Below, in pieces: positions 11,432 to 29,066 of a stretch of DNA of 64,000 bases. A program made the position numbers and the translations under genes. The notes below the pieces were generated by a model, which was not told where the DNA came from, ran no database searches, and saw nothing but the letters and a program-made list of their open reading frames with translations. The stretch is from Methylorubrum extorquens. GTDB taxonomy: Bacteria; Pseudomonadota; Alphaproteobacteria; Rhizobiales; Beijerinckiaceae. Location of the stretch: positions 1,556,001 through 1,620,000 of the forward strand of contig NZ_JALJXF010000001.1 in NCBI RefSeq assembly GCF_024169925.1. Reading direction: 5' to 3'. The stretch's first letter is position 1. Every line of letters starts with the position of its first letter.

Positions 11432-12029
11432 TCACGTACGGCACGGCTGGCGGTGCTGTGCCGTCGCGTACGCCTGCTCCTCCAGGCGTCGGAGCCAGAG
11501 GTCCGCGATGTCGCTCAGCGTGTCAGGTTGCGGGGCCACCAGGGTTCGCGCACGAAGTGGAAGGACAGGGTCACACGGGTGGTGATTGTCGGCCCCGGCT
11601 GGAGAAGCGGGCTCAGGTCAGCGGTCGGCGCGAAGGAGTGCGCCCCGCGAACATCAAGGACGGCCTCGTCATCCCCAGTCTCGGCCGTGAGGCGCCAGAT
11701 CGAGAGGTGTCGCGTCCGGAGGGGTGGCGCTCGCTGATGCCGCTCTGTGGGCAATGAAGCGTTACCGCGCCACGACCTTCTAGAACTGGATCGAGGTCGA
11801 TCGTGATTGGGTGTGGTCGTTGCCGATCTGCCGCCGACGGCGTGAACAAGCTTGGGTGACGCAGGATCCGCGCGAGATAGTGCGGGGCGGCATTGAAGCG
11901 GCGGCTTGTTGTGAGCGCGGCGATGCACCAGCGATGATCGTCGTGGTGAAAAAGCATCAAGGGGCGCCCCGTGGGAGGGACGCCGCACCGGGTGCTGCAG
12001 CGGCGGCTTTGGTAAGGGCGCAATGACAC
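11432..12029 (-). pseudogene. Decayed hypothetical gene(s) next to the IS630 copy
   Basis: Several short minus-strand stretches read like protein but in different frames: GRPLMLFHHDDHRWCIAAL with HPITIDLDPVLEGRGAV (about 11790-11960), SIWRLTAETGDDEAVLDVRG with TTRVTLSFHFVREPWWP (ending 11515), and a coupled GTG ORF of 35 codons (11432-11539, DTLSDIADLWLRRLEEQAYA). The 5' end abuts the IS630 insertion at 12032, so a gene was probably broken by the IS and then decayed. The original product cannot be identified. Confidence 0.3.
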
Positions 12030-13108
12030 TAGTGGTGCGAGTCTAACACTTGGTGCCCGCGCCTTGCGGCCTGGATGATGCGATCCGGGTCGGCGGTCCA
12101 GGTGAAGGGCTTGGGGTCGCCGTTGCTCTCGGCGATGAAGCGTTTGATGGCCGCCTGTACCTCGATCAGCGATCCGAACACGCCGCGTCGCAGGCGGCGT
12201 TTTGCGAGCTTGGCGAAGAAGCCCTCAACGGCGTTGAGCCACGAGGCTGAGGTCGGGGTGAAATGGAAGGTCCAGCGTGGGTGGCGATCGAGCCAGGCGC
12301 GGACCTTCGGGTGCTTGTGAACGGCATAGTTGTCCAGGATCGCGTGGACGATCTTGCCCGCCGGAACCGCCGCCTCGACCGCGTTGAGGAAACGGATGAA
12401 CTCCTGATGCCGGTGGCGCTGCATGCAGCGGCCAATCACCTTGCCCTCCAGGATGTCCAGAGCGGCAAACAGGGTCGTCGTGCCGTGGCGCTTGTAGTCG
12501 TGGGTGCGCGTCGTCGGCTGGCCCGGCTTCATCGGCAACGGGGCCTGCGTGCGGGCGAGCGCTTGGATCTGGCTCTTCTCGTCGACCGAAAGCACGACGG
12601 CATGGGCGGGCGGATCGACGTAGAGCCCGACGACGTCACGCAATTTGGCAGCGAAGGCCGGGTCGGTAGAGAGCTTGAACTGCCGGACCCGGTGTGGCTG
12701 TAGGCCGTGCCTCCGCCAGATCCGCTGCACCGACGAAATGCTTATGGCTGTGACCTTGCTCATGGCGGCGGCCGTCCAATGCGTGGTCTCGCCGGGCGGA
12801 TCTTCCTGCGTCAGAGCCACAACACGCGCCGCCACCTCCGGCCCCAGCGGCGGGATGCGCGCCGGCCGCGTCTTGTCTCGCAGGAGCCCTTCGACGCCCT
12901 CCTGCGCGAAGCGGTCCTGCCAGCGCCAGACCGCCGTCTTGGACACGGCCGCCTCACGCATGATCGCGTGCGTCCCGATCCCATCGGCGCTCAGCAGCAC
13001 GATGCGAGCGCGCCAAACGTGCTTCTGCGGAGTGTTTCGATCCGCGACCAGGGCCTCTAGCCGAAGGCGATCCGAGGCGGAGAGCGTGAAAGAGATGTCA
13101 CTGCGCAT
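12029..13108 (-). CDS. IS630-family transposase, copy A
   Basis: 359 residues and complete. An N-terminal helix-turn-helix pair (HAIMREAAVSKTAVWRWQDR; KVTAISISSVQRIWRRHGL) is followed by a DDE_3 domain: VVLSVDEKSQIQAL (first Asp), HAILDNYAVHKHPKVRAWL (second Asp) and TSASWLNAVEGFFAKLAKR (Glu, the usual N-x-x-E). The translation is identical to copy B at 25368-26447, and the frames on the other strand are identical too, so the DNA copies are essentially the same. The TAG stop is completed outside the element by the TA target duplication plus the next base. Confidence 0.95.
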   Translation of the reverse strand: MRSDISFTLSASDRLRLEALVADRNTPQKHVWRARIVLLSADGIGTHAIMREAAVSKTAVWRWQDRFAQEGVEGLLRDKTRPARIPPLGPEVAARVVALTQEDPPGETTHWTAAAMSKVTAISISSVQRIWRRHGLQPHRVRQFKLSTDPAFAAKLRDVVGLYVDPPAHAVVLSVDEKSQIQALARTQAPLPMKPGQPTTRTHDYKRHGTTTLFAALDILEGKVIGRCMQRHRHQEFIRFLNAVEAAVPAGKIVHAILDNYAVHKHPKVRAWLDRHPRWTFHFTPTSASWLNAVEGFFAKLAKRRLRRGVFGSLIEVQAAIKRFIAESNGDPKPFTWTADPDRIIQAARRGHQVLDSHH

Positions 13109-13177
13109 CCCACGAGACTCGCAGGACGGACTTCAAACCGGAACCCCGGACGGACTCAACCGTCAGGGCTGAACCAC
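12032..13177 (-). mobile_element. IS630-family insertion sequence, copy A, 1146 bp
   Basis: The outer ends read GTGGTGCGAG at the left and, on the opposite strand at the right, GTGGTTCAGC. The flanking TA dinucleotides (12030-12031 and 13178-13179) are the target duplication typical of IS630, and the target was CTAG. The second, identical copy sits inverted at 25299-26444. Both transposases read outward from the 12-kb interval between them. Confidence 0.93.
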
Positions 13178-13179
13178 TA

Positions 13180-13555
13180 GCACCTGCCATGAGCAGGCGC
13201 GGAAGTACAGATGAGGTAAGTCGTGTCCGCGGCAGAGCTCCGGTGCGGTGCTGTCGATCGACGTTCGTCGATCTAAACTACAGACGCTTGCTCTGATAGA
13301 TTATACCTCCTCACGAAGCGCATGGAGCCATCAAGGATTTATGCTGGGTAGCGGGATCGCGCGGGGTGTACGCTGGCCTCGCTGTCCGAACGAAGCGGTC
13401 CCTATGTGGTTTGTGGTCCGTGCGCAGGCGGCGAGCGTAGGCGGCGGCGCGGTCCAACGTGGAGGGCCCGGCGCGGTGTTCGGCTGCGCCGGGGACGAAG
13501 CGGTGGTGTGCGATCGCCAGTGTAGGGCGGGGCGGGCGAACCGCAGTGGAGGGTG
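13180..13555. other. About 375 bp without a gene
   Basis: This spacer lies between the IS630 end and the stop of the nuclease gene at 13556. It includes a short A/T-richer stretch near 13270-13340. I see no protein-like frame, RNA gene or repeat. Confidence 0.4.
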
Positions 13556-14764
13556 TCAGGCGGCGCGGGCTACCTGCTTGGGGAATGGACTGGTTGCGTG
13601 CGGTCGGCTTCGCCGCGTTGGCAGCTTCGGACCTACTGGTGTGTCGGTGGTGGACTGCGCGGTCGGTGCGGCGGCGGGGACCGGTGCGGGCGTGGGCATG
13701 GCCGCGAGTTCAAGTTCACCGTCGACGAGCCACCAGTCCGTGTAGCGGCGGTGCAGCGCGCGGGCGTGATCCGGGAGGCCAGCCGCCGCTATGGCCACGA
13801 ACGCGTGCTCCAGAGTCAGCGGGACGAACGGGATCGGGCCGGCCTGCGGGTCCGTGAGCTGGCGCGTGTATGCCGTGGCCGCGGCGTGCGCGAGGCTGTT
13901 GTGCATGGGGGCGATGAAGGCCAGCGTCGCCGTTTCCGCGAGACCGGCCGTGAGCATGGCGCTCGCGAGGCAGTGCTGGCGGTAGAGTTGCTGGCAGGCC
14001 GAGCCGGTCAGGGTCGGGTCGTCCGGGTCCACGAACAGGCCGGAGGTGGTGCGGGCGATCTCCGTGTATCGCGGGTGTGGCGGCGGTGCGGGTTCGTGGC
14101 CGGCTTCGCTGTATTTGATTTCGATGCAGACGATGGTGCGGGCGCCAGTCGCGTCCCGGCCGCGGAGCACGACGTCGTAGGCGGTGCGGTCGGCGGTGTA
14201 GCGCGGGTCGCCGCGTCCCGGCGAGTGCTCGAACAGGATGTCGGTGACTGAGGTCAGTTTCCCCGGCAGCAGTTCGGCGGCGAAGCGGGTGGCCAGTTGC
14301 GGGTCGCGGGCGAGCGGGCCGAACAGGTTGAAGGCCAGGGGCTGCGAGGACAGCAGGTTGGTCTTCAGCCGGTCGACGTCGTAGGCCGCGCCCGGCTCGC
14401 GGTACGCCAGGGCCCGGGTGACCACCGGGACGATGTCCGGATGAAGGAAGTTGCTGCCGAGTGCGCCAGCCGCGGCCGAGATTCGCGAGCCGAGGCGGCG
14501 CGGGCGGTGCGGTTGACGGCGGTCGACGTGGGTGCCGATCGCGAGGCCGCGGTCCTCGCGCCAGAGCGCCTGCATGAAGCGGGCGGCGGCCTTGAAGCGG
14601 TGGTCGGCGGGGATGAAGACGCGGTGGCGGCGGCGGGCGGCCTCGGGGATGAGGGGCACGCGGTCGATGATGCCGAGGCCCGAAAGGTCGAGGACGGCGC
14701 GGGCGGCAACCCCGAGGGGGGCAGGGGCGTCGGCGGCGGGCGGCAGGGGGGCGGTGATGTCCAT
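13556..14764 (-). CDS. PGN_0703-type putative restriction endonuclease
   Basis: 402 residues. The core matches the PGN_0703 family of PD-(D/E)XK nucleases: LLSSQPLAFNLFGPL at 137-151, FEHSPGRGDPRYT at 178-190, then D197 in TAYDVVL and the E215-I-K217 pair in CIEIKYSE. A C-terminal region follows (ACQQLYRQHCLASAM, FIAPMHNSLAHAAA) and a Pro-rich tail of about 45 residues. Members occur as stand-alone predicted type II-like nucleases in defence islands. No cognate methylase is visible in the window. It is monocistronic on the minus strand with no adjacent same-strand gene within 1.1 kb upstream. Confidence 0.82.
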   Translation of the reverse strand: MDITAPLPPAADAPAPLGVAARAVLDLSGLGIIDRVPLIPEAARRRHRVFIPADHRFKAAARFMQALWREDRGLAIGTHVDRRQPHRPRRLGSRISAAAGALGSNFLHPDIVPVVTRALAYREPGAAYDVDRLKTNLLSSQPLAFNLFGPLARDPQLATRFAAELLPGKLTSVTDILFEHSPGRGDPRYTADRTAYDVVLRGRDATGARTIVCIEIKYSEAGHEPAPPPHPRYTEIARTTSGLFVDPDDPTLTGSACQQLYRQHCLASAMLTAGLAETATLAFIAPMHNSLAHAAATAYTRQLTDPQAGPIPFVPLTLEHAFVAIAAAGLPDHARALHRRYTDWWLVDGELELAAMPTPAPVPAAAPTAQSTTDTPVGPKLPTRRSRPHATSPFPKQVARAA

Positions 14765-18196: not shown

Positions 18197-19294
18197 TCAG
18201 ACCGGGCTGGATGTCAGATCCTTCGGACGGCGGAAGGCAGCTGTACCTTTGCCCGGCCGGCCGACCGCGTAGACTCGCAGGTTGTGCTGGCTTCTCAGGC
18301 TCTCGGTGATCGTCCCGACCGCGCCGTCCCTCTGGTCCGCGTCGAAGCCGAACAAGACAAGGCGCGGCTCAGAGTCGACCTGCAGCCGGCGTGCGCCGGA
18401 GGCCACCTCGACCACGAGCGGATCGCGCTGCGGCAGCGCAGTTACTTCGAGGCCGCGGGCCAGTCGCACCGTGCGGCGCAGGGTGTCGAGGCGGACGAGG
18501 TCGCGGCACAAGGCGGGGTAACTCGTAGCGAGGCGGTCGGCCTCGTGCTTCAGCGTGGCACGGTAGCGCTCAACCTGCCCGACGATGGCTGGGATCGATC
18601 TGGAGCGCAGCGCAGGGTTTGTCGCGAGCTTGGCCTCGTGAAAGACGAGCCATGCCTCACCGGCCACGCCCCGCTCCTCCAGGCTCGCTACGTCGAGCCG
18701 ATCCTGCCGCGTTGGGGCCACACCCGCGTCCGCGTCAGGGGATTGAAGTGCGGCGTCCACCTCCGCCTGAGCTCCGTCAGGCTCGGCCGCTGTGTCGAGT
18801 GGTGCCCCGGTCAGTGAAACCTCGACATCGACGACGTTCGGGCTGGCCTGCGCAAGCGTGTGCACCCCGGTCTTCTCCAGACCGGCGAGCGGCGTCGCGG
18901 CCCGCTTCATTTCTGCCAGCGTCGCGGGGCCTTCGTAGCGGGTCCAGACCGCTGCAGCCGGATCGAGACCGAAGCCGCCATCCGCGGCAAGGCGGGTCAT
19001 GGCCTGGCGCTGGCGCACAAGGTACTTCACGTGCGTCTCGGCCGCGACGCCCTCGCTCGCTGGGGTGATCCGGAAGAGTGAGGCGCCGCGGTAGTAGACG
19101 TTGAGCGACCGGTTCCGGACCGCCAGCAGCAGGTCCGGGTCGGCGAGCACATCAGCCCACCACGCTCCGTTCGGCGCGTCCGCCAGAGCTTCGAGGGCGG
19201 CGAGGAAGGGCTCGCCCAGGCTTCGGTACGAAACGACAGCCGTACCGCTTCCGGGGGCGTTCTCCACGCTACTCATGCCGCCGTCTCCCACCAT
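18197..19294 (-). CDS. PD-(D/E)XK-like protein paired with an MBL hydrolase
   Basis: 365 residues. The N-terminal half has LLAVRNRSLNVYYRGASLF (residues 56-74), a beta-rich motif. The C-terminal half has the nuclease-like series D201 in RQDRLDVASLE, E220-A-K222 in LVFHEAKLATN, then IPAIVGQVERYRATL (234-248). The order D...E-x-K followed by a Q-x-x-x-Y helix is characteristic of PD-(D/E)XK enzymes. The gene starts 22 bp inside the end of the upstream MBL gene, so they are translationally coupled. Nuclease function is inferred from motif spacing and needs structural confirmation. Confidence 0.5.
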   Translation of the reverse strand: MVGDGGMSSVENAPGSGTAVVSYRSLGEPFLAALEALADAPNGAWWADVLADPDLLLAVRNRSLNVYYRGASLFRITPASEGVAAETHVKYLVRQRQAMTRLAADGGFGLDPAAAVWTRYEGPATLAEMKRAATPLAGLEKTGVHTLAQASPNVVDVEVSLTGAPLDTAAEPDGAQAEVDAALQSPDADAGVAPTRQDRLDVASLEERGVAGEAWLVFHEAKLATNPALRSRSIPAIVGQVERYRATLKHEADRLATSYPALCRDLVRLDTLRRTVRLARGLEVTALPQRDPLVVEVASGARRLQVDSEPRLVLFGFDADQRDGAVGTITESLRSQHNLRVYAVGRPGKGTAAFRRPKDLTSSPV

Positions 19295-20523
19295 TGTCCG
19301 TCCTCTCTGATCGTGACGCGTGACCCGAACAGCGCCGGGAAGCGCTCGGGTTCGAAGGTGTGGACCGGAACGAGCTGGCGCGGCGCGATCGCCCCTGCCA
19401 GGCGCTTAAGGTCCGGGATGCTGGCGTGGCCCGAGGTGTGGGCGTGGCTGAGCGGAATGGCGCGGGTAGCCAGATCGGTGACGAGAGCTTGGCCTCGGGG
19501 CTGGCCGAGGTAGCCGGCCCACTGCGACCAGATTGCCCGTGCGCCGGTGAGACAGTCGGCTCGGTCGAGGTCGGGCAGCAGCGAGTGGCGGAACAGCAGG
19601 GCGGCGCGGGGCGCGATTGCCGCGAGTTGTTCGCCGTAGATGCGGTTGGCTCCATGCCGCTCGATCAGGTCGAAGCGGCCCGTGCGCTTGATCCGCACGC
19701 GCTGGTGCTGGGGCACGAAGACACTGACGCCCGACCAGTCGGATTGTGGGATGCGCGGGTTGCCAGTCGCGGCCACCACCTCGGCGGCGTAGAGGTCGAG
19801 CACCAAAGTGCGGCCGGTGCGCTTGCATGCGCGGTAGAGGGAGACGACGCGGTCGATGTTTTGAGCCGAGACCGCCACCAGCGCCAGGCCTTCGGTGTCG
19901 GCGAACAGGCTGACGAAGCGGTCCTCGATGTCCGCCTCGGTCGGGAAGATGCAGTCGTCGTCGAGGCGGCCGAGGCTCGATCCCTCCAGCAGCAGCGTGT
20001 CGATCTCGAGGGGCGGGTCGCGCACGAGGCGCTCGAACAGCGCGCCCTTGCGCCCGTGTGCGCGAAGGTCGCCGGAGTACAGCAGCCGCTGCCCGCCGGC
20101 CTCCACCAGTAGGGCGTAGGCGTCGTAGGCCGAGTGGTCGACTAGGATCGGCGTGACGGTGAACGGGCCAAAGCTGAGCGCCTGCCCGTCGGTGAAGGTG
20201 ACGGTGTTCGTGGGGACATAGCTGTCCGGGACGAAGGCGGCGGCGGCTCGGAGGATGCGCAAGGTCGCGTCGCCCATCGCCACGGGCAGGTCCGGCCCGG
20301 CGAGGTGACTTAGTCCGACGTGGTCGCGGTGGCCGTGGCTGAGAACGACCGCGAGGAGATCACCACCGCCGGCGAGTCCGTCAATCGTCGGGTGGCGGCT
20401 CGTGTCGGCAGGATCTCCGTCCAGCGGCAGGCCGAGATCGAGCAGCAGCCGGGCCCCATCGTGCTCCAGCTCGACGCAGGTGCCACCAATCTCGCGCGTG
20501 CCGCGGTGGATGCGCACCTGCAT
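19273..20523 (-). CDS. Metallo-beta-lactamase-fold hydrolase (RNase J/CPSF-like)
   Basis: 416 residues. The metal-binding signature H63-G-H65-R-D67-H68 is intact, with H130 in LVDHSAYDAYAL and D152 in LYSGDLRAHGRKG completing the di-zinc site. The C-terminal HTSGHASIPDLKRLAGAI and QLVPVHTFEPERF are the beta-CASP-type motifs of RNase J and related exonucleases. A likely nuclease rather than a lactamase. It is the promoter-proximal gene of a pair with the PD-(D/E)XK-like protein and is divergent from an XRE regulator 107 bp away. Family assignment is strong; substrate unknown. Confidence 0.85.
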   Translation of the reverse strand: MQVRIHRGTREIGGTCVELEHDGARLLLDLGLPLDGDPADTSRHPTIDGLAGGGDLLAVVLSHGHRDHVGLSHLAGPDLPVAMGDATLRILRAAAAFVPDSYVPTNTVTFTDGQALSFGPFTVTPILVDHSAYDAYALLVEAGGQRLLYSGDLRAHGRKGALFERLVRDPPLEIDTLLLEGSSLGRLDDDCIFPTEADIEDRFVSLFADTEGLALVAVSAQNIDRVVSLYRACKRTGRTLVLDLYAAEVVAATGNPRIPQSDWSGVSVFVPQHQRVRIKRTGRFDLIERHGANRIYGEQLAAIAPRAALLFRHSLLPDLDRADCLTGARAIWSQWAGYLGQPRGQALVTDLATRAIPLSHAHTSGHASIPDLKRLAGAIAPRQLVPVHTFEPERFPALFGSRVTIREDGQWWETAA

Positions 20524-20579
20524 CGTGCCCCTGTGCCCCTTACGGTCTCCAGCCGCGTCACGAGCTTAGATTTAATGTG

Positions 20580-20591
20580 TGGCTATAGCCA
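20580..20591. promoter_or_regulatory. Palindrome between divergent MBL and XRE genes (possible operator)
   Basis: TGGCTATAGCCA is a perfect 12-bp palindrome in the 106-bp gap between the divergent starts at 20523 and 20630, next to an A/T-rich TTAGATTTAATG. Its position suits autoregulation by the XRE protein and control of the MBL pair. No direct evidence of binding. Confidence 0.45.
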
Positions 20592-20629
20592 GTGGTTAGA
20601 TAGCCCGCGCTGGCCGCTGATCCTGGCCT

Positions 20630-20887
20630 ATGAAGGGTCGGGCATTGGTGGCGTGGAACCTACGCCGGGTGCGTGTGGCGCAGGGCTTGAGTCAGGAGCG
20701 GCTAGCGGCGGACGCCGGCGTGGATCGGGCGTATCTCGGCGGGCTTGAGCGACAGGCAGAGAACCCGACGGTTGATCTGCTCGACAAGGTCGCCGAGGCG
20801 CTTGCCGTACCGCTGGGGGAGCTGTTCGTTGCACCGGCTGAGGGCGCAACGCCGCCCCTGCCGCTGCGCGCCGGCCGTCGTCGCTGA
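20630..20887 (+). CDS. XRE-family transcriptional regulator
   Basis: 85 residues. A single Cro/CI-type helix-turn-helix occupies residues 6-65: LRRVRVAQGLSQERLAADAG followed by VDRAYLGGLERQAENPTVDL and LDKVAEALAVPLGELF. There is no effector domain. It is divergent from the MBL/PD-(D/E)XK pair and the palindrome between them is a candidate operator. Small XRE proteins often control defence or toxin genes beside them. Confidence 0.85.
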   Translation: MKGRALVAWNLRRVRVAQGLSQERLAADAGVDRAYLGGLERQAENPTVDLLDKVAEALAVPLGELFVAPAEGATPPLPLRAGRRR

Positions 20888-21262
20888 TGGGTGATCAGTA
20901 CATGCGCGGACATTGCAGAGGCGATGTGGCCGCTTGGGGCTTCCCCGCTGGCGGTATGTTGTCTTGCCTGACGCGTACCCAAAACGAGGTTTACTGGCCG
21001 CTGCCGGCGCGGCCAGAGGATAAATACATCAATAAATTCAGATATATATCAAGGCACCCTGGTCTGCCCATCTGATGACGGACGTGCATAAAAGGATCCC
21101 TGGCCGTGCATTAGGTTCAGAGACCCGTAATACACGCGAAGGACGTATACGGGGTCTGGGGGTCACTTTCGGACCGATTCTACTGGCACCGGCGTGACGC
21201 CGACGCCTCTGTAGCTGCGTCGTCCCGCCGGTGCAGAACCGCGATTAGGTGCAGAACCGCGA
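20888..21262. other. About 375 bp without a gene; A/T-rich patch and tandem repeat
   Basis: Positions 21018-21055 are markedly A/T-rich (ATAAATACATCAATAAATTC and ATATATATC). An 18-bp tandem repeat lies at the right end (separate entry). No RNA gene recognised. The XRE gene ends from the left and the clamp-like gene from the right, so this is a convergent spacer. Confidence 0.4.
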
Positions 21263-21265
21263 TCA
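21230..21265. repeat. 18-bp tandem repeat, two units plus a partial third
   Basis: The unit GGTGCAGAACCGCGATTA (21230-21247) is followed by GGTGCAGAACCGCGATCA (21248-21265) and then GGTGC. The stop codon of the clamp-like gene lies inside the second unit. It may be a slippage product or a binding site. Confidence 0.7.
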
Positions 21266-22960
21266 GGTGCGGGGCTGCAACGGAGCGTCCCAACGTTTGG
21301 ATCGGCGCGGCGGCAGACCGTGCGTATCGTCTTGCGTCCCTGACGCCAGGACGTAGTCCGTCCGGTGCTCCGCCATGGCCTCCGATACGAGGAGGGCCTT
21401 GTCTTCAAGGAACTCGAGACACAGGAGGCCGCTGCGTAGGGAGCGTAGGGCACCTCGTAGATCGGACACGACATAACGGCCGAGCTCGATTGCTGGTGCC
21501 GGATCGTGCCATGCAGAGGCCTCTCCTGCCTGTTCGCGCTCCAGATTGAGTATGTGGGAGGATCGGCTCAGGCGACCGCGGAGATTGGAGGCCTGTTCGG
21601 GGTCCATCATGACACTGCAGCAGTCGTTCCTGAAGCGATTCGCTGCCCATGCAGCGTCCATCCCAAGAGCGATCTGCCCGTCAACGAGGGCGATCCGGAG
21701 TTTAAGCTGCAGGCGCCGCTGGCCGTCCGAGTTAGCGCTTGCGGTGAGCAGGGCGATGTCGACGAGTCGGGAGAGTTCCGCGTGTTCGCACTGCATCGCC
21801 AGGGTCGGCTGCAAGGACGAGCGGGGATTGATTACGGGAAAGGTGTCGAACGGTTGCGTAAGGTAGATAGTGAGCCGAGGGTCCTGGATCACACACGTCC
21901 TGCCCGAGCTGCGGAACGTCGTCGCGGTCGGGTCGAGATGGCGCATGAGGGATGTGAGTTTCGAGATGTCTGACTCGGCGACACGGAAGGACAGTCCGGC
22001 GAGCGCTGGGTCGCTGTGGAAGGCATACATCCGTTGGTTTGACGCGCAGGCGATCCGGTCTTCGATCGCGACTTGGCTCAACTTAGGTAAGGCGTCGATC
22101 CTTGTCGCTGCTGCGGGCTTGGCAGCGCGCAGGGCGGTTGAGACTCGATCGGGGAAGATCTGGATTGGATCGCTCAGTTCAAGATTATCCTCCCACGGCA
22201 TGCCCGTGTCCGTCGGAGCGAAAAAATTAAGCTCAGTGTCGCCATAGAGCAGCCGGCCGTCTGATGTCTGCGACTTCATGGTCCAGTGTGCTGGCTCGTC
22301 CGGGACGCTCTGATAGATGGCGCGCGGCGCCAGGCTTCGATTGGACGATTGAGGTCGAGTAGAGGTCTTCTTCGGCTTCGATTTGTTTTTGACAACCTGC
22401 AGTGCTGCTAGCCGCAGGATCTGGGCAGGAATTTGCATCCGACCAGCCCCGCTTGAGTTCGTACCACCAGCAAACGGAACCCGAACTTGGCAGCGAATCG
22501 AACCGTTGCAGAAGTCGAAGCGCAACCCATCCGGGGTGACTTCGCATGGCACCCTGGTTTCCACGTCCTTCCCGTCTGGTTCCGCTGCGACGGGCATGGG
22601 TAGCATTGTGGCGGTGACGTCACGTAGCTGCAGCAGGTCGATGTGATAGGTTTGAAAGCGGATTCCATCCTCCGGTTCTCCAGCCTCCTGCATGTCCTCC
22701 GACGGACCGCAGTCTTTTCCGCCGCCCATACCGCTGCAGTCGAAGAGGGCCGATGCCGGTTGATCGACCTGCGTATCGACCGCGGTGGAGCTGGCATCGA
22801 CATCCATCGACGAATCGGCCCCCTGGGGATCCGAAGTCGGTGGGAGTACGAAGTGCGGCCCAGGTTGGTGCGCGGGCGCGGCGCCTGCCAGCGTGGGACC
22901 GAACGCGGGGGCGGCGACTGGCAGCGCTGCGGGCGTGGTATCGGGGTCAGCGTCTGTCAT
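21263..22960 (-). CDS. Diverged DNA sliding-clamp (DnaN/beta)-like protein
   Basis: 565 residues with a Pro/Ala-rich disordered N-terminus of about 95. The rest follows the beta-clamp pattern. The end of domain 1 reads IRCQVRVPFAGG then GRMQIPAQILRLAALQ (155-189). Domain 2 has ACASNQRMYAFHSD at 304-317, in the place of the clamp signature T-D-G-H-R-L-A, then RVAESDISKLTSLMRHLDP (326-344) and LTIYLTQPFDTFPVI (363-377), matching the beta strand and the G-R-F-P-D-Y region. Domain 3 begins at about 383 (LQPTLAMQCEHAELSRLVDI). It is longer than DnaN (about 370) because of insertions. It is the last gene of an operon with a clamp loader, which strongly supports the idea. This is a pattern-level call without a database search. 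Confidence 0.6.
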   Translation of the reverse strand: MTDADPDTTPAALPVAAPAFGPTLAGAAPAHQPGPHFVLPPTSDPQGADSSMDVDASSTAVDTQVDQPASALFDCSGMGGGKDCGPSEDMQEAGEPEDGIRFQTYHIDLLQLRDVTATMLPMPVAAEPDGKDVETRVPCEVTPDGLRFDFCNGSIRCQVRVPFAGGTNSSGAGRMQIPAQILRLAALQVVKNKSKPKKTSTRPQSSNRSLAPRAIYQSVPDEPAHWTMKSQTSDGRLLYGDTELNFFAPTDTGMPWEDNLELSDPIQIFPDRVSTALRAAKPAAATRIDALPKLSQVAIEDRIACASNQRMYAFHSDPALAGLSFRVAESDISKLTSLMRHLDPTATTFRSSGRTCVIQDPRLTIYLTQPFDTFPVINPRSSLQPTLAMQCEHAELSRLVDIALLTASANSDGQRRLQLKLRIALVDGQIALGMDAAWAANRFRNDCCSVMMDPEQASNLRGRLSRSSHILNLEREQAGEASAWHDPAPAIELGRYVVSDLRGALRSLRSGLLCLEFLEDKALLVSEAMAEHRTDYVLASGTQDDTHGLPPRRSKRWDAPLQPRT

Positions 22961-22985
22961 GATCTTCCTTCGTGTTGATGGGTTG

Positions 22986-24089
22986 TCACAAGAGCTTCCC
23001 GTCGCCGGGAGCGGACTGTTCTCCCGTCAGTGACCACCATCCGCCCCAGGACCGGGGCCGCAGTTCAGCCCGCCAGCTGCAGCGGACCTCGAGATCCGCA
23101 AACGCTGCGGCTCGGCGCGCGCGCACTAGGGCGTTGGGTCCGTCGGGGTACAGCGCATCGATGCGGGCGCGGAACTCGACGCGCGCCGCGCGCTCTGCCG
23201 ATCGGGCGCGGTGTTCGTCGAGTTCCCATCCAGAGAAGAGCCACGCCCAGGCGCGATCCTGCATTGGGTTGAGGAAGCCCATACCGTCCGCCGCCGCTCT
23301 CCGTCGTGCTTCTGGGGCGATCGAGTCCGAGGTGCTGATGCGCTGGGCGGCGTCGATCGCGCCGATCGCACGCCGCTCTGATACGGGCACACCAAGCAGA
23401 TCGATCAGGGGGCGCCGAACATCCTCCTCGTCCCAGTCGTAGATGTTGGGGTCGAGGCCACGCAGGAGCCGCCGGAACGAGGTGGCGTGGTAAGCGACCC
23501 GCTCGTCCCGCTTCGTCGCACGGCAGACTGCCACTTGAGCTTGGGGCGCGGGGCGGCGCCGGGTCGTCTTGAAGTCTTCCTCCGCCCAGGAGGTGAAATC
23601 GACGAGGCGGTGGTCAGGGACGACATGCGCGGCGAGTTCGGTGACGAAGCGTCCCTTACCGGTCATTTCGTGAACGGAGAGGAACGGAAAGTCGTCCTGA
23701 CCGCGCCGCTTGAGGAGGGCCCGAGCGCGACGGCAGAAATCCGTGATGGCCGCGCTCGCGACGGATCCCGCGTGCGCCGCGTCGGGGCCGTGGTCGAACG
23801 TCACCCGGACGTTGAGCAGGCGTCCGGTGTCTTGTGCGAGGAAGGAGGCGGCGATGTACAGGTCGCGGGCTTGGCTGGCGTTCAGGTACGGCTGCCGCCG
23901 CTCGACCCGCGAGCGCGTCTTGGCTCGCTCGTGCGCGGCAAGCCTGCGGCGACAGCGGGGGAGAATGGGAGACGCCGTCGGCGGAAGATCATGGTCGGTG
24001 GCCGGATGTACGCGCTCTGGCCCCTCGCGCGCTGCGCCAAGCAGGTCGTAGAACCCAGTCAGACGGAGGATGAGTTCGTCTTGCGTCAC
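22986..24089 (-). CDS. Putative replication-initiator-like protein (middle gene of the clamp operon)
   Basis: I choose the GTG at 24089 because it overlaps the upstream stop as GTGA; a TTG at 24104 is also in frame. About 367 residues. LLNVRVTFD (91-99), a helical stretch ending CRRARALLKRRG, FPFLSVHEMTGKGRF (134-148) and TELAAHVVPDH (150-160) follow the order of the first motifs of HUH/rolling-circle Rep proteins, but only one histidine of the H-x-H pair is present. A Tyr-containing helix follows (RVAYHATSFRRLLRG). It could be a degenerate Rep or an unrelated nucleic-acid-binding protein. The gap to the clamp gene is 25 bp. Confidence 0.4.
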   Translation of the reverse strand: MTQDELILRLTGFYDLLGAAREGPERVHPATDHDLPPTASPILPRCRRRLAAHERAKTRSRVERRQPYLNASQARDLYIAASFLAQDTGRLLNVRVTFDHGPDAAHAGSVASAAITDFCRRARALLKRRGQDDFPFLSVHEMTGKGRFVTELAAHVVPDHRLVDFTSWAEEDFKTTRRRPAPQAQVAVCRATKRDERVAYHATSFRRLLRGLDPNIYDWDEEDVRRPLIDLLGVPVSERRAIGAIDAAQRISTSDSIAPEARRRAAADGMGFLNPMQDRAWAWLFSGWELDEHRARSAERAARVEFRARIDALYPDGPNALVRARRAAAFADLEVRCSWRAELRPRSWGGWWSLTGEQSAPGDGKLL

Positions 24090-25189
24090 TGGGCCGTCCC
24101 CCAAAAGCGCGCACAGTCCTCCAGGTACGCTGCGAGGGACGAGGTTTCCGGACGGCGAGCGTCGAAGCGCGCTACCAACGCCTCACGACGCTCTACGGGG
24201 AGGTCGTTCACCGGATCGTAGGCCTTACCGATATGCCGGACGTGAGAAAGGCTTAGGCGGAGCAGGAAGCGCTGCATCGTGGCACGCTTCTCATCAGGGC
24301 TTCCGGGCGCCTCCACGAAGGCAGCGATGGCGCCCGATAAATCGTCATCGAGCAGAGCTTCGGCACAGCGCAGGCAGGCCGCGAGGGGATCGGGGAACAG
24401 CCGGCGGACCGTGGCCACGGTCAGCGGACCCGCGGTTATGCATCGGTCGAGCGCTGCCGCCACCTCGCGGTAGCTCACCCCCTCATGTGCTGCCAGAAGG
24501 TCGAGCGCGGCTGGTTCATATGCCTCCGGTCCCAAGCCCCACCCCACCTCGCATCGCCGGCGGAGGTAACGCAGGCGGTCCACTGTACAGGCCGGACGTA
24601 GCCGGACGTGGCGGCAGCGCGTCAGGAGGGCGGTGCCGAGCTTGTCCGGCTCCGTGGTGGCAAGAATGTAGATCGCGTGAGGTGCGGGCTCTTCAAGGTC
24701 CTTGAGGAGCGCGTCTTTCCCCGCGCGGGAGGTGCGGTGCGCTTCGTCGGCAAAGCCTACTTTGAAACGCCCGAGGGGTGAGCGGCGCATCAGCGCCACC
24801 AGGTGGGACATCGCATCGACGCCGGTGTACTCGGCCGCACTAATCTCGACGTAGTCGTCGATTCCACGTGGCGGATTCTCCCGGAATGCATTGCAGATGG
24901 CGCAGGCCCCACAGGCCTCGTGGCCTTCGTTCCGGTTCCAGCACAGGGCGACGTTTCCCAGGATGCGCGCGATCGTCGTCTTCCCGATCCCACTAACGCC
25001 GCTCAGGAGCAGCGTCCGGCAGCGCGGCTTCGAGTTGGCCGCGCTGAGCGCATCCTCCAGGAAGGATCGGATCGCGCCGATTGCCTCCTCCTGACCGCTC
25101 ATGTCCTCGAAGCTGCGCGGACGATCGAGGAACGCGGCCTGCGCGGGGACAGGGCGCCGCCACGCGGAATCCGAAGGGTCACTCGACAT
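24086..25189 (-). CDS. DnaX-like clamp-loader AAA+ ATPase
   Basis: 367 residues, closely patterned on the DNA polymerase III tau/gamma subunit. Walker A is GVSGIGKTT (64-72). The zinc module is C83, C93, C96 and C99, with the C-G-x-C-x-x-C spacing of DnaX. VEISAAEYTGVDAM (114-127) matches the E-I-D-A-A-S-N-T-G-V-D segment. Walker B is FADEAH (146-151), followed by KDALLKDLEEP, sensor 1 ILATTEPDKL (175-184), and T-R-C (190-192) in place of the S-R-C arginine finger. It lacks the long tau C-terminus. It is first in a three-gene operon with a Rep-like and a clamp-like gene. The housekeeping dnaX is expected elsewhere in the genome, so this is an element-encoded paralogue. Confidence 0.85.
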   Translation of the reverse strand: MSSDPSDSAWRRPVPAQAAFLDRPRSFEDMSGQEEAIGAIRSFLEDALSAANSKPRCRTLLLSGVSGIGKTTIARILGNVALCWNRNEGHEACGACAICNAFRENPPRGIDDYVEISAAEYTGVDAMSHLVALMRRSPLGRFKVGFADEAHRTSRAGKDALLKDLEEPAPHAIYILATTEPDKLGTALLTRCRHVRLRPACTVDRLRYLRRRCEVGWGLGPEAYEPAALDLLAAHEGVSYREVAAALDRCITAGPLTVATVRRLFPDPLAACLRCAEALLDDDLSGAIAAFVEAPGSPDEKRATMQRFLLRLSLSHVRHIGKAYDPVNDLPVERREALVARFDARRPETSSLAAYLEDCARFWGTAQ

Positions 25190-25298
25190 GGTCGGCGCGC
25201 TCCCGATGGGTTTGCGGCATAGGTGGCCGATCGATGAACCCGGGTGACGGGCATCGTGGTGGGTTAGCCGTTCCTGTGAAGGCTCGTGCGGGTCCCTA

Positions 25299-26444
25299 GT
25301 GGTTCAGCCCTGACGGTTGAGTCCGTCCGGGGTTCCGGTTTGAAGTCCGTCCTGCGAGTCTCGTGGGATGCGCAGTGACATCTCTTTCACGCTCTCCGCC
25401 TCGGATCGCCTTCGGCTAGAGGCCCTGGTCGCGGATCGAAACACTCCGCAGAAGCACGTTTGGCGCGCTCGCATCGTGCTGCTGAGCGCCGATGGGATCG
25501 GGACGCACGCGATCATGCGTGAGGCGGCCGTGTCCAAGACGGCGGTCTGGCGCTGGCAGGACCGCTTCGCGCAGGAGGGCGTCGAAGGGCTCCTGCGAGA
25601 CAAGACGCGGCCGGCGCGCATCCCGCCGCTGGGGCCGGAGGTGGCGGCGCGTGTTGTGGCTCTGACGCAGGAAGATCCGCCCGGCGAGACCACGCATTGG
25701 ACGGCCGCCGCCATGAGCAAGGTCACAGCCATAAGCATTTCGTCGGTGCAGCGGATCTGGCGGAGGCACGGCCTACAGCCACACCGGGTCCGGCAGTTCA
25801 AGCTCTCTACCGACCCGGCCTTCGCTGCCAAATTGCGTGACGTCGTCGGGCTCTACGTCGATCCGCCCGCCCATGCCGTCGTGCTTTCGGTCGACGAGAA
25901 GAGCCAGATCCAAGCGCTCGCCCGCACGCAGGCCCCGTTGCCGATGAAGCCGGGCCAGCCGACGACGCGCACCCACGACTACAAGCGCCACGGCACGACG
26001 ACCCTGTTTGCCGCTCTGGACATCCTGGAGGGCAAGGTGATTGGCCGCTGCATGCAGCGCCACCGGCATCAGGAGTTCATCCGTTTCCTCAACGCGGTCG
26101 AGGCGGCGGTTCCGGCGGGCAAGATCGTCCACGCGATCCTGGACAACTATGCCGTTCACAAGCACCCGAAGGTCCGCGCCTGGCTCGATCGCCACCCACG
26201 CTGGACCTTCCATTTCACCCCGACCTCAGCCTCGTGGCTCAACGCCGTTGAGGGCTTCTTCGCCAAGCTCGCAAAACGCCGCCTGCGACGCGGCGTGTTC
26301 GGATCGCTGATCGAGGTACAGGCGGCCATCAAACGCTTCATCGCCGAGAGCAACGGCGACCCCAAGCCCTTCACCTGGACCGCCGACCCGGATCGCATCA
26401 TCCAGGCCGCAAGGCGCGGGCACCAAGTGTTAGACTCGCACCAC
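25299..26444 (+). mobile_element. IS630-family insertion sequence, copy B, 1146 bp
   Basis: This is an inverted duplicate of 12032-13177. Ends read GTGGTTCAGC (left) and, on the opposite strand, GTGGTGCGAG (right). Flanking TA dinucleotides at 25297-25298 and 26445-26446, again from a CTAG target. It sits between the start of the clamp-loader operon and a hypothetical gene and separates that operon from the integrase. Confidence 0.93.
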
Positions 26445-26447
26445 TAG
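25368..26447 (+). CDS. IS630-family transposase, copy B
   Basis: 359 residues, identical to copy A over the full length, with the same helix-turn-helix pair and D-D-E catalytic set (VVLSVDEKSQ, HAILDNYAVHK, SWLNAVEGFF). The TAG stop is built from the TA target duplication plus the adjacent G, as in copy A. Identity at both DNA and protein level indicates recent transposition. Confidence 0.95.
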   Translation: MRSDISFTLSASDRLRLEALVADRNTPQKHVWRARIVLLSADGIGTHAIMREAAVSKTAVWRWQDRFAQEGVEGLLRDKTRPARIPPLGPEVAARVVALTQEDPPGETTHWTAAAMSKVTAISISSVQRIWRRHGLQPHRVRQFKLSTDPAFAAKLRDVVGLYVDPPAHAVVLSVDEKSQIQALARTQAPLPMKPGQPTTRTHDYKRHGTTTLFAALDILEGKVIGRCMQRHRHQEFIRFLNAVEAAVPAGKIVHAILDNYAVHKHPKVRAWLDRHPRWTFHFTPTSASWLNAVEGFFAKLAKRRLRRGVFGSLIEVQAAIKRFIAESNGDPKPFTWTADPDRIIQAARRGHQVLDSHH

Positions 26448-26456
26448 AACGCGCGC

Positions 26457-26494
26457 AGGCCGATCCTGCCTGCCGAGGTAGGCCGATCCTGCCT
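26457..26494. repeat. 15-bp direct repeat near the IS630 right flank
   Basis: AGGCCGATCCTGCCT occurs at 26457-26471 and again at 26480-26494, eight bases apart, between the IS end and the stop of the next minus-strand gene. Function unknown. Confidence 0.6.
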
Positions 26495-26964
26495 CAGTCG
26501 TCCGGATCGCGCAAAGGTTCGGCCGCCTCGCGTCTGCGGTCGAGTAGTTCCGCTACGATCAGAGCTTCGTCTTCGGTCAGAGCAGCTACGAACCGGGCGA
26601 GAAGTTCATGGGACGATGACTTCGGTGTAACGGCCACTTTCCGGAAGAGGCCGCCCGTCGTGAAAATCGGATCATTATTGATGCGGATGCGTTTGCCGGT
26701 CGCAACACATCCTAATAGCTCTAGTTTAGCGGCCGTCGCTACGCCGACGAATTGCTTTGTCTTCGACGATGCAAACGTGTCGCGGCCGAACTGCTCGATC
26801 AGATACTTGCTGATGGCTCCGACTGGCGGATCGCCCGCCGACACGGCTGCAAGAAGCGGAGCTTCGAGAGAGTGTCCCGATATGAAGGTCTGAATCTGGA
26901 TCAGGATGGGCGAGGCACGTGAAAGCTGCCTTGCGCGCTGCTGCATGGAGTAGGCCGGCATCAC
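26494..26964 (-). CDS. Hypothetical protein between IS630 and integrase
   Basis: 156 residues: MQQRARQLSRASPILIQIQT, then FISGHSLEAPLLAAVSAGD, ISKYLIEQFGRDTFASSKTK, QFVGVATAAKLELLG and a C-terminal helical ELLARFVAALTEDEALIVAE. The composition is credible and less GC-driven than its neighbours. No family recognised. It is on the integrase strand, separated from the integrase stop by about 85 bp, and could be an element accessory or a regulator. No helix-turn-helix is evident. Confidence 0.55.
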   Translation of the reverse strand: MMPAYSMQQRARQLSRASPILIQIQTFISGHSLEAPLLAAVSAGDPPVGAISKYLIEQFGRDTFASSKTKQFVGVATAAKLELLGCVATGKRIRINNDPIFTTGGLFRKVAVTPKSSSHELLARFVAALTEDEALIVAELLDRRREAAEPLRDPDD

Positions 26965-27048: not shown

Positions 27049-28875
27049 TTAGGGTTTCGGCGGGAGGGGTTGGCTCGACGCGTGCGGTGACACGTCTCCC
27101 CCACCTGGAAGAAGATGAGACAGGCCCGACTCGATCACGATCGTCTCGACGGCTGCCTTCAGTTGCGCGAGCGTCGAGCGTTTGGTGTAGCGAGCCGTCT
27201 CGCCTGGGGTCGTATGACCCGTGACGTGATCGATCACGGCCGTAGCCACACCAGCTTGGTGCATCAGCGTCGTCGCGGTGTGCCGGAAGGAGTGGAAGTT
27301 CAGCCCGGGGCGGTAGAGGCCAACGTCCCGTCGGTAGCGCGTGAACCATTTGGTGAAGGCGTGCCCCAAACGGTCGTCCGCGCCGCCCGGACGGAACGCG
27401 GGAAACACGCGGGTCTGCCGGCTGCGGCGCAGACGCTCGACATGTTGCATGAACCCGAGCCGGATCAGTTCCGAGTGCATAGGCACGCGCCGGATCGCCG
27501 TGGCATTCTTAAGCTTGCGCGGCGGCCGATCGTTGATGTCGAAGTACCAAATCCCGTTCTCTTGACGAACGTCCTCAAGTTGCAGCTGGCAGATCTCCTC
27601 CTGGCGCAGCCCGGAGAAGACGGCGATCAGCGGCAGCCAGAAGCGCTCGTCCCGGAGGATGAGCGTACCGGGCGTGCTTCGCTGCGTCGCCGACCGGCAG
27701 CCGGTCCAGACCGGCGTGGTGAAAAGGCGCGCGAGGTTGGCCTGTTCCCACATGTCCCGCTGCTCGCTCGGCTTGCGGGTGGCGGAGAAGCGATGGCCTG
27801 AGAAGATGTTTTCGCCCGCATCACCCTCCGCCACCGCCGCCGTCCAGAGTGTGGATAGAGCCGAGAAGTGGCGTTTGATGGTCTTCTGGGTGATGACCTC
27901 GACACGGCCGGCCTGGGGCAGGGCGGTGTAGGCGCTCAAGATCGCCTCGACGCTGAGGCCGCGGTACCGTGGGTGCTTGCCGTAGTCGCTGGGCAGGCGT
28001 TCGACGCGCTCGCGGAAGCGCCCGGCGTCCTTGCGGGTGTAGGCGCCGAGGGGCTTGTCGCCGCACACGTCGACGAACAGGCGATAGGTGGCGCCGGCCT
28101 GCGCCGCGGTCTGATTGTCCCAGCGCTTCGTCTGGACCTGCTGGTCGCGGAAAGCTTTGCCGCGGCCCTCGAACCGGACGCCGGGCACTGGAACGGTGTC
28201 GTTTTTCGCGGGCGGTGGTGATGCCACTGGAGCGACAGGGGCGGTTGCGGCCATCGGTGGTGCCGCAGGCGTCGGCCATTGCTTCGGTTGTGGCTCGGCA
28301 AGCGTCGCCTTCAGGAGCTTGTCGCGCGGCTCGTAGTTGAAGTCGCCCTCGTAGCGGGCTTTCAGCGCCTCGGAGAGGTCGATCCCCGCACGCAGCATGG
28401 CCTGCTTGGCTCTGGCCGCTTCCGTGGGCGTCAGATCCCGGATGGCGATCCCCTGACGCTTCAACATCACCTCGGCGATGAAAGCCGCCTCGTCGAGGCG
28501 GTTGCCGGCTAGCGCCTCGCGGCCTTTAGCGGCCATCGTCGCGTACTGCGTGACTCGGGCCTCCCGCACGCCATCGGGCAGCGGGCCACGGGTGAGCCGG
28601 CCGGCGTTCTCGTCGGTCAGCATGGTGTCGAAGAAGTCGCGGACGAGGCGGATGATCTGGTCGTCGGTCAGCATCGGCGTAGCGCGCAGGGTCGAGAACA
28701 GCTCTTCCGCCGCCACGTATAGCCGACAGCCCCTGAGCTTGGCAGCGCGGATATCGCCCGTGCCGAGGCTGCACACGAGTTCGTGGCGGCCGAGGCGTAG
28801 CCGAAGGTCGGCCGGGATTCGGCGTCGGAAGTGAAAGATGCGTCCGCGCTGGACGACGTTGGCGACCGAACCCAA
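27049..28875 (-). CDS. Large tyrosine recombinase/integrase
   Basis: 608 residues from a TTG at 28875 (no ATG/GTG closer in frame). The N-terminus RGRIFHFRRRIPADLRLRLG is the DUF6538 module that begins many alphaproteobacterial island integrases. A Pro/Ala linker (about 205-235) precedes a core-binding SAM-like domain. The catalytic domain has R in FSGLRQEEICQL, K in DINDRPPRKLKN, HSFRHTATTLMHQ (H-x-x-R), GHTTPGETARYTKR (H and the nucleophilic Tyr). The gene lies 117 bp from the 3' end of the tRNA-Gln gene and reads away from it, as expected for an integrase next to its att site. It should excise and integrate the island. Confidence 0.92.
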   Translation of the reverse strand: MGSVANVVQRGRIFHFRRRIPADLRLRLGRHELVCSLGTGDIRAAKLRGCRLYVAAEELFSTLRATPMLTDDQIIRLVRDFFDTMLTDENAGRLTRGPLPDGVREARVTQYATMAAKGREALAGNRLDEAAFIAEVMLKRQGIAIRDLTPTEAARAKQAMLRAGIDLSEALKARYEGDFNYEPRDKLLKATLAEPQPKQWPTPAAPPMAATAPVAPVASPPPAKNDTVPVPGVRFEGRGKAFRDQQVQTKRWDNQTAAQAGATYRLFVDVCGDKPLGAYTRKDAGRFRERVERLPSDYGKHPRYRGLSVEAILSAYTALPQAGRVEVITQKTIKRHFSALSTLWTAAVAEGDAGENIFSGHRFSATRKPSEQRDMWEQANLARLFTTPVWTGCRSATQRSTPGTLILRDERFWLPLIAVFSGLRQEEICQLQLEDVRQENGIWYFDINDRPPRKLKNATAIRRVPMHSELIRLGFMQHVERLRRSRQTRVFPAFRPGGADDRLGHAFTKWFTRYRRDVGLYRPGLNFHSFRHTATTLMHQAGVATAVIDHVTGHTTPGETARYTKRSTLAQLKAAVETIVIESGLSHLLPGGGDVSPHASSQPLPPKP

Positions 28876-28992: not shown

Positions 28993-29020
28993 TGGCTGGG
29001 GGACCTGGATTCGAACCAGG
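28993..29020 (-). other. Putative attachment site at the 3' end of tRNA-Gln
   Basis: The 3' part of the tRNA gene (T-arm through CCA) faces the integrase, the classical position of an att core. No second copy of this stretch is seen elsewhere in the window, so the other end of the island must lie to the left of position 1. Inferred from context. Confidence 0.5.
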
Positions 29021-29066
29021 ACTAGCGGAGTCAGAGTCCGCGGTTCTACCGTTAAACTATCCCCCA
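28993..29066 (-). tRNA. tRNA-Gln (anticodon CUG)
   Basis: 74 nt on the minus strand. The acceptor stem TGGGGGA pairs with TCCCCCA, followed by G and an encoded CCA. The anticodon stem GCGGA/TCCGC encloses CTCTGAC, whose middle triplet CTG reads glutamine codon CAG. The T-arm loop contains GGTTCGAATCC. It is the integration target of the island and its sequence remains intact. Confidence 0.95.

Follow-up and report, generated by a model that had tools for sequence, protein, structure and literature searches.

A DnaX-like ATPase coupled to a Rep-derived protein and a diverged sliding-clamp-like protein on an integrative element of Methylorubrum extorquens

The stretch of DNA analysed here (the window) comprises 64,000 nucleotides of Methylorubrum extorquens (contig NZ_JALJXF010000001.1, positions 1,556,001 to 1,620,000) and contains an island beside a tRNA-Gln gene. 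Three open reading frames (ORFs) of this island lie on the minus strand at 24086-25189 (367 amino acids), 22986-24104 (372 amino acids) and 21263-22960 (565 amino acids), where a first-pass annotation had placed three coupled genes. We denoted their products the DnaX-like protein, MID and CLAMP. Comparison with two related loci, L008 of Methylobacterium sp. Leaf99 and L009 of M. tarhaniae, indicated that MID likely starts at the GTG codon at 24089 rather than at 24104. The stop codon of the DnaX-like gene and the start codon of MID overlap by four bases (GTGA), and the same overlap was found in L008.

24086 to 25189, minus strand: DnaX/gamma-like clamp-loader ATPase of 367 amino acids, first gene of the operon (PF13177, TIGR02397, tree)
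22986 to 24089, minus strand: MID, Rep-derived protein (alignments, homology via relatives)
21263 to 22960, minus strand: CLAMP, very diverged sliding-clamp-like protein of 565 amino acids, its N-terminal ~100 residues poorly conserved (nine-row family alignment, structure)
21332 to 21844, minus strand: codons for CLAMP residues 373-543, domain III of the DnaN type (structure)

The triad was found in the same order in L008 and L009, so the three genes are not neighbours by chance. Between the window and L008, the nonsynonymous (dN) and synonymous (dS) divergences were 0.152 and 0.914 for the DnaX-like gene, 0.172 and 0.62 for MID, and 0.252 and 0.753 for CLAMP. In all three genes dN is well below dS, consistent with purifying selection.

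The first gene had been called DnaX-like from its motifs, and this assignment was confirmed. The protein matched PF13177 at 1.3e-15, above the family cut-off, and the dnaX_nterm equivalog TIGR02397 (dnaX) at 2.7e-38 with 132.2 bits, below the cut-off of 250. With the clamp loader of bacterial DNA polymerase III (DnaX gamma/tau, HolB delta-prime) it shares the AAA+ core, including a Walker A motif (GVSGIGKTT), a Walker B motif (DEAHR), the Arg-finger motif TRC and a Cys4 module (C-x9-C-x2-C-x2-C) whose spacing is inside the range of ordinary DnaX rows. A database search returned 582 proteins; among the best 120, six clusters at 70-100% identity, including the window's own, were followed by DnaX-type proteins at 29-41%. 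The host genome has its own DnaX and a HolB-like gene, both labelled by resemblance. A tree of 36 rows built with FastTree joined the DnaX halves of every element type described below with six of the eight element-encoded delta-prime-like proteins in one group (local support 0.995), from which 13 ordinary DnaX proteins and HolB fell apart. Inside this group, types B, C and D and the delta-prime-like proteins clustered with a local support of 0.936. The element protein differs from host-type DnaX in its sub-cut-off equivalog score, its separate branch and its tie to a Rep-derived domain. As judged from its sequence, the first gene encodes a DnaX relative, which would load clamps together with delta and delta-prime subunits. 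DnaX-type matches occurred in 131 plasmid records, none spanning 80% of gene 1, and PADLOC-DB 2.0.0 gave weak generic ATPase matches only (best 4.5e-4). The host's own DnaX (L002) showed no Cys4 motif in a pattern scan, and the element DnaX-like proteins retain it.

MID had been described as carrying the early motifs of HUH Rep proteins. The profile search against Rep and HUH families that had been proposed for it found, when run directly, no match in Pfam and one sub-threshold Rep match in PHROG (0.11), and homology to HUH Reps became visible only via relatives. An extended MID profile (A3) reached intact Reps at 3e-15, 3e-10 and 5e-10. The clearest case is the free-standing Rep of locus L082 (genome G749), which has an intact His-Thr-His motif and Y-x-x-K; it matched the Pfam family REP_ORF2-G2P (PF23343) of rolling-circle HUH Reps at 1.7e-5 (25.5 bits, below the cut-off of 27.8), a rolling-circle initiation PHROG at 1.6e-4 and, within a small local set, MID at 2e-22. 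Because the L082 Rep matches both MID and the Rep families and has an intact site, it forms a bridge between MID and HUH Reps. The other three free-standing Reps (L078, L079, L080), through which MID is likewise homologous to this family, gave PF23343 values of 0.042, 8.5e-4 and 1.3e-3, all below the cut-off, and no PF23343 match was found in the 17 MID rows scanned.

We aligned 20 MID rows, five of which were database proteins with neighbours not seen, with the four free-standing, DnaX-less Reps (24 rows). All four Reps carry His-Thr-His and Tyr-x-x-Lys. The HUH histidine pair, by contrast, is complete in none of the 20 MID rows, with the second His alone kept in L025 and L076, and the catalytic Tyr is lost in 18 of them, being replaced by R in the window. 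Only L022 and L023 retain the Tyr, with R instead of K in Y-x-x-K. Since both the histidine pair and the tyrosine are gone, DNA nicking by MID is very unlikely. The comparison of sequences thus identifies MID as a descendant of HUH Reps that lost its nicking residues, which upholds the Rep-like reading of the middle gene and corrects it on this point. In the 20 kb fetched for each of the four intact Reps, no DnaX-like match was found. Loss of the nickase site thus accompanies partnership with DnaX. Two of the intact-Rep loci, L079 and L080, combine the Rep with an integrase (DUF6538 was confirmed in that of L079) and a PDDEXK_13-like gene at a tRNA-Ser, a layout that is possibly ancestral.

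The coupling of the two proteins recurs as gene fusion. A three-row MID profile (A2) matched 12 of 111 Methylobacterium genomes, namely the three elements with separate genes and nine distant ones, and all nine distant matches were the C-terminal part of 699-755 amino acid proteins with a DnaX-like N-terminal part. The broader A3 profile gave matches in 8 of the 298 genomes searched in the family, 5 of 397 in the order and 1 of 376 in the class (the window's own); these wide searches scored only three to six candidates per genome, so the low counts may miss relatives. It added one more Methylobacterium fusion, the tenth (G091), another fusion in G432, MID together with a DnaX-like fragment disrupted by an insertion sequence (IS) in G193 (L077), and the free-standing Reps in G118, G362, G131 and G749. 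The 19 loci compared, in fetched stretches of 12-21 kb, thus comprise the four intact-Rep loci and 15 DnaX-linked loci of the following architectures.

Type A (window, L008, L009): separate DnaX-like, MID and CLAMP genes
Type B (L022, L023): DnaX-like/MID fusion and a divergently oriented clamp gene
Type C (L024, L025, L026, L028, L029, L030, L076, L081): VapE-type helicase protein, fusion, ~450-residue domain or protein without a family, delta-prime-like ATPase
Type D (L027): fusion and two large proteins without a family (L027:12075-15601)
L077: IS-disrupted locus, the fifteenth DnaX-linked locus

A DnaX-like partner was present in all 15 loci found via the Rep-derived domain (as a fragment in L077) and a recognisable clamp in five. 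The condition that the first-pass annotation had named as refuting, homologues of the first gene without the other two, thus had a mixed outcome. Conversely, a 12-row clamp profile detected clamp genes in five of the 111 Methylobacterium genomes, all five adjoining DnaX/MID genes; a weak clamp fragment with stops in G672 was left out of this count. The type B clamp is related to CLAMP (hhalign, 5.4e-6). In type C the ~450-residue domain is fused before the delta-prime-like ATPase in five of eight loci (L028, L029, L030, L076, L081) and encoded separately in L024, L025 and L026. Pfam identified VapE plus a J domain in L024 and VapE only in L081, and the other type C VapE proteins were assigned through similarity to L024. 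No clamp was recognised in the type C stretches, whose limited length means that absence of a gene says little; the type C J-domain protein, considered as a clamp, was ruled out by its VapE domain. The type D proteins (737 and 481 amino acids) have a clamp-like segment order by eye and gave no significant Pfam or PHROG match; as a paired or heteromeric clamp they reached hhalign P values of 0.065 and 0.15, and we make no such claim. No relatives of MID or of the clamp were found in viral contigs (searched with short peptide patterns), phages (one MID query) or plasmids.

CLAMP had been interpreted as a DnaN/beta clamp from its segment order. It had no family match in Pfam, NCBIfam, PHROG or PADLOC, and a PDB sequence search with the CLAMP alignment returned a ribosomal protein at E 1.1 only. 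The structure comparison with DnaN that had been suggested was more informative for its C-terminal part. The model has a predicted local distance difference test score (pLDDT) under 50 in 434 of 565 residues, including residues 1-383. Of the 50 PDB matches listed by Foldseek, 48 are labelled as a clamp, PCNA, 9-1-1 or pol III beta, and two are chains of a mismatch repair complex, 8xla. Likewise, 49 of the 50 VIA entries listed were clamps or pol III beta (the remaining one, 5x06, is a replication regulation protein), and seven of the ten best viral structure matches were named clamps or processivity factors, with three lacking an informative name. The match spans domain III and stops where the beta clamp stops. 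On this model, residues 373-543 firmly correspond to a DnaN-type domain III with the processivity fold; the clamp assignment is firm for this domain alone, and sequence-profile tests against DnaN fail. CLAMP also differs from DnaN at the C-terminus, where the model aligns YVLMPMRV of the host DnaN with YVLASG plus a further tail in CLAMP. All nine rows of the family alignment share RRSKRWD at the C-terminus.

The clamp genes differ more between close relatives than their neighbours do. L022 and L023 share 92.4% identity in the fusion and 54.5% in the clamp (dS 0.175 and 1.72), and identity drops sharply near the start of the fusion gene, toward the clamp. In L008 and L009 identity is 97.5% for the DnaX-like protein, 86% for MID and 72% for the clamp (dS 0.069, 0.23 and 0.39), declining gradually from the MID end onward. 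The raised dS in the clamp speaks for an exchange of this region and against change of the protein alone.

The surroundings of the triad are those of a tRNA-associated integrative element, as follows.

28993 to 29066, minus strand: tRNA-Gln(CTG), bordering the island on its integrase side (tRNA scan)
27049 to 28875, minus strand: tyrosine integrase with DUF6538 (PF20172 2.7e-15, PF00589 3.5e-15)
26494 to 26964, minus strand: p156, small conserved protein encoded between the integrase and the DnaX-like protein (also in L008 and L009)
25296 to 26447, plus strand: IS copy with a 359 amino acid transposase, between p156 and DnaX-like gene (comparison with second copy)
20888 to 21262, no strand: patchily conserved non-coding stretch, terminator or candidate origin (comparison of type A copies)
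20630 to 20887, plus strand: XRE-type regulator, with relatives in L008, L009 and L082 (PF01381 1.7e-13)
19273 to 20523, minus strand: metallo-beta-lactamase/beta-CASP-like nuclease of the same element (PF12706 3.1e-13, PF07521 1.9e-4)
18197 to 19294, minus strand: 365 amino acid protein with no family assigned, its end overlapping the metallo-beta-lactamase gene (ORF list, Pfam scan)
13556 to 14764, minus strand: PDDEXK_13 nuclease, a recurrent companion in related elements (PF20796 3.6e-99)

The order integrase, p156, DnaX-like, MID, CLAMP, XRE beside a tRNA-Gln is common to the window, L008 and L009, the tRNA at the corresponding place in the latter two being tRNA-Gln(TTG). A PDDEXK_13-like gene was present in 10 of the 19 loci, the window included, and an integrase resembling that of the window in eight.

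We consider the chances about even that the triad is a replication module of the integrative element, in which the Rep-derived domain recognises DNA and the DnaX-like protein serves as the motor; we favour this function over the sequestration of the host clamp or the sensing of DNA damage, which the first-pass annotation had put beside it. An ancestral rolling-circle HUH Rep would have lost its nicking site and been joined, as a DNA-recognition domain, to a gamma-like clamp-loader ATPase, the link being made by the GTGA overlap in the window and by fusion in more distant elements. Once the element is excised, the Rep-derived domain would bind the element origin and draw the loader to it. Perhaps together with host delta and delta-prime, the loader would then place a clamp, which would recruit a polymerase. 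The clamp would come from the element in types A and B, and a VapE-type helicase and a delta-prime-like ATPase would be supplied instead in type C. This reading is supported by the DnaX-like/MID fusion in all nine distant Methylobacterium matches plus G091 and G432, by the recurrent setting of PDDEXK_13, integrase and tRNA across loci, and by the VapE domain (L024, L081), J domain (L024) and delta-prime-like ATPase that type C adds.

Several observations weigh against it. No polymerase or primase, and no second copy of the tRNA 3' end, was found in the stretches examined; the element origin is only a candidate and excision is putative. In hhalign, CLAMP against DnaN was not significant, as 12 of 200 shuffled controls reached its score and reversed DnaN scored higher. 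The MID model (mean pLDDT 41, no Foldseek match at E 0.001) is too poor for a HUH fold to be recognised, and the protein in the delta slot of type C, tried as a HolA delta, gave an hhalign P of 0.32 against five HolA sequences. The stronger divergence of the clamp, moreover, is as compatible with conflict as with replication.

Primer-template structure is generally held to direct clamp loaders to their sites. The combination of the three genes suggests that an initiator which once nicked DNA was converted, in these elements, into a guide for the placing of replication clamps. More tentatively, and with rather less than even confidence, we propose that the dead HUH Rep and the DnaX ATPase together form a site-directed loader of a private, fast-diverging sliding clamp on element DNA. 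If true, one bacterial cell would hold a second, element-specific clamp/loader pair beside the host's, outside phages. The fusion of an initiator-derived domain with a clamp-loader ATPase would make targeted clamp loading directly accessible to study. It would also mean that parts of the elongation machinery can travel on small integrative elements, with clamp genes exchangeable as cassettes.

Partial likenesses exist in known systems. For replication from oriV, the RK2 initiator TrfA needs contact with the beta clamp (PMC4980987), and it resembles the proposed module as an initiator bringing the clamp to an origin. TrfA acts with the clamp loader complex by way of a clamp-binding motif, whereas here the element itself encodes the loader ATPase and links it, by coupling or fusion, to the Rep-derived domain. 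In polyoma- and papillomaviruses an inactivated HUH domain serves as the origin-binding domain (PMC6668415). The proposed module would be a bacterial counterpart of this switch of HUH from an enzymatic to a structural role, with the domain joined to a clamp-loader ATPase instead of a superfamily 3 (SF3) helicase. Some jumbo phages encode an RFC-like loader and a PCNA-like clamp next to the phage polymerase, and the available part of that paper mentions no Rep-loader fusion (PMC7824862). Phage beta clamps also exist by name. Clamp and loader are thus both found on mobile DNA in phages as well, but here they lie on small tRNA islands without a recognised polymerase. A literature search limited to titles, beginnings of abstracts and open-licence texts found neither a fusion of DnaX with Rep nor a loader/clamp operon described for a bacterial integrative element. 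Replication modules of mobile elements are known as a general kind, and we have not seen this architecture described.

An unlikely alternative is interference or defence. The dead Rep would here spot rolling-circle replicons entering the cell, or elements that compete with its own, and the loader would block their replication by placing a clamp that is non-productive or by sequestering that of the host, possibly with the nearby PDDEXK_13 nuclease. The strong divergence of clamps beside near-identical neighbours would fit such a conflict, as would the XRE regulator and the PDDEXK_13-like genes of the 10 loci. However, PDDEXK_13-like genes also lie beside the intact, DnaX-less Reps (L078, L079, L080, L082) and are thus not specific to the triad module, the VapE helicase domain of type C points to replication, and PADLOC gave no specific match for the three proteins (none at all for MID and CLAMP in PADLOC-DB 2.0.0). 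Rather less probable is a role of the clamp in integration, excision or repair instead of the element's vegetative replication; it would mark element DNA and recruit repair or recombination enzymes, like alternative clamps such as 9-1-1. The integrase of the same island, the 9-1-1 chain among the Foldseek matches and the invariant RRSKRWD, which could dock a partner, are compatible with this role, but no recurrent repair enzyme was recognised in the loci, most of whose genes were not family-scanned, and the Rep ancestry of MID points to replication. We give still less credence to the view that CLAMP merely shares a repeated alpha/beta domain with clamps and that the operon is a DnaX-Rep system plus an unrelated third protein. 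The silent family libraries, the profile-profile score not above controls and the low pLDDT of most model residues speak for it; the clamp names that dominate the PDB, VIA and viral matches, and a match spanning domain III to the end of the beta clamp, speak against it. That the module is a decaying, non-functional relic is highly improbable, because the three ORFs are intact and dN is well below dS between lineages, even if the nearby IS copy may sever the operon from its promoter.

The two IS copies (12029-13180 and 25296-26447), whose transposase is presumably IS630-like, are 1152 bp each, 100% identical and inverted relative to each other, and the 12.1 kb between them contains the PDDEXK_13, metallo-beta-lactamase and XRE genes and the triad. 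The right copy, ~107 bp upstream of the start of the DnaX-like gene, may separate the operon from its promoter. At the other end of the operon, CLAMP and XRE converge on the non-coding stretch 20888-21262, which separates their ends in all three type A copies. Its pairwise identity is 55-79%, compared with 72-81% in CLAMP DNA, and this lower conservation means that it may be a terminator only; Rfam gave no match on 20400-21400. The stretch contains a hairpin at 21186-21234, inverted GTGCATTA/TAATGCAC-like motifs and a 14-base run, CTAATGCACGGCCA, that is invariant in all three type A elements. The metallo-beta-lactamase/beta-CASP-like nuclease gene is not among the gene calls of L008 and is present in L009, where it is accompanied by an ORF resembling the 365 amino acid protein.

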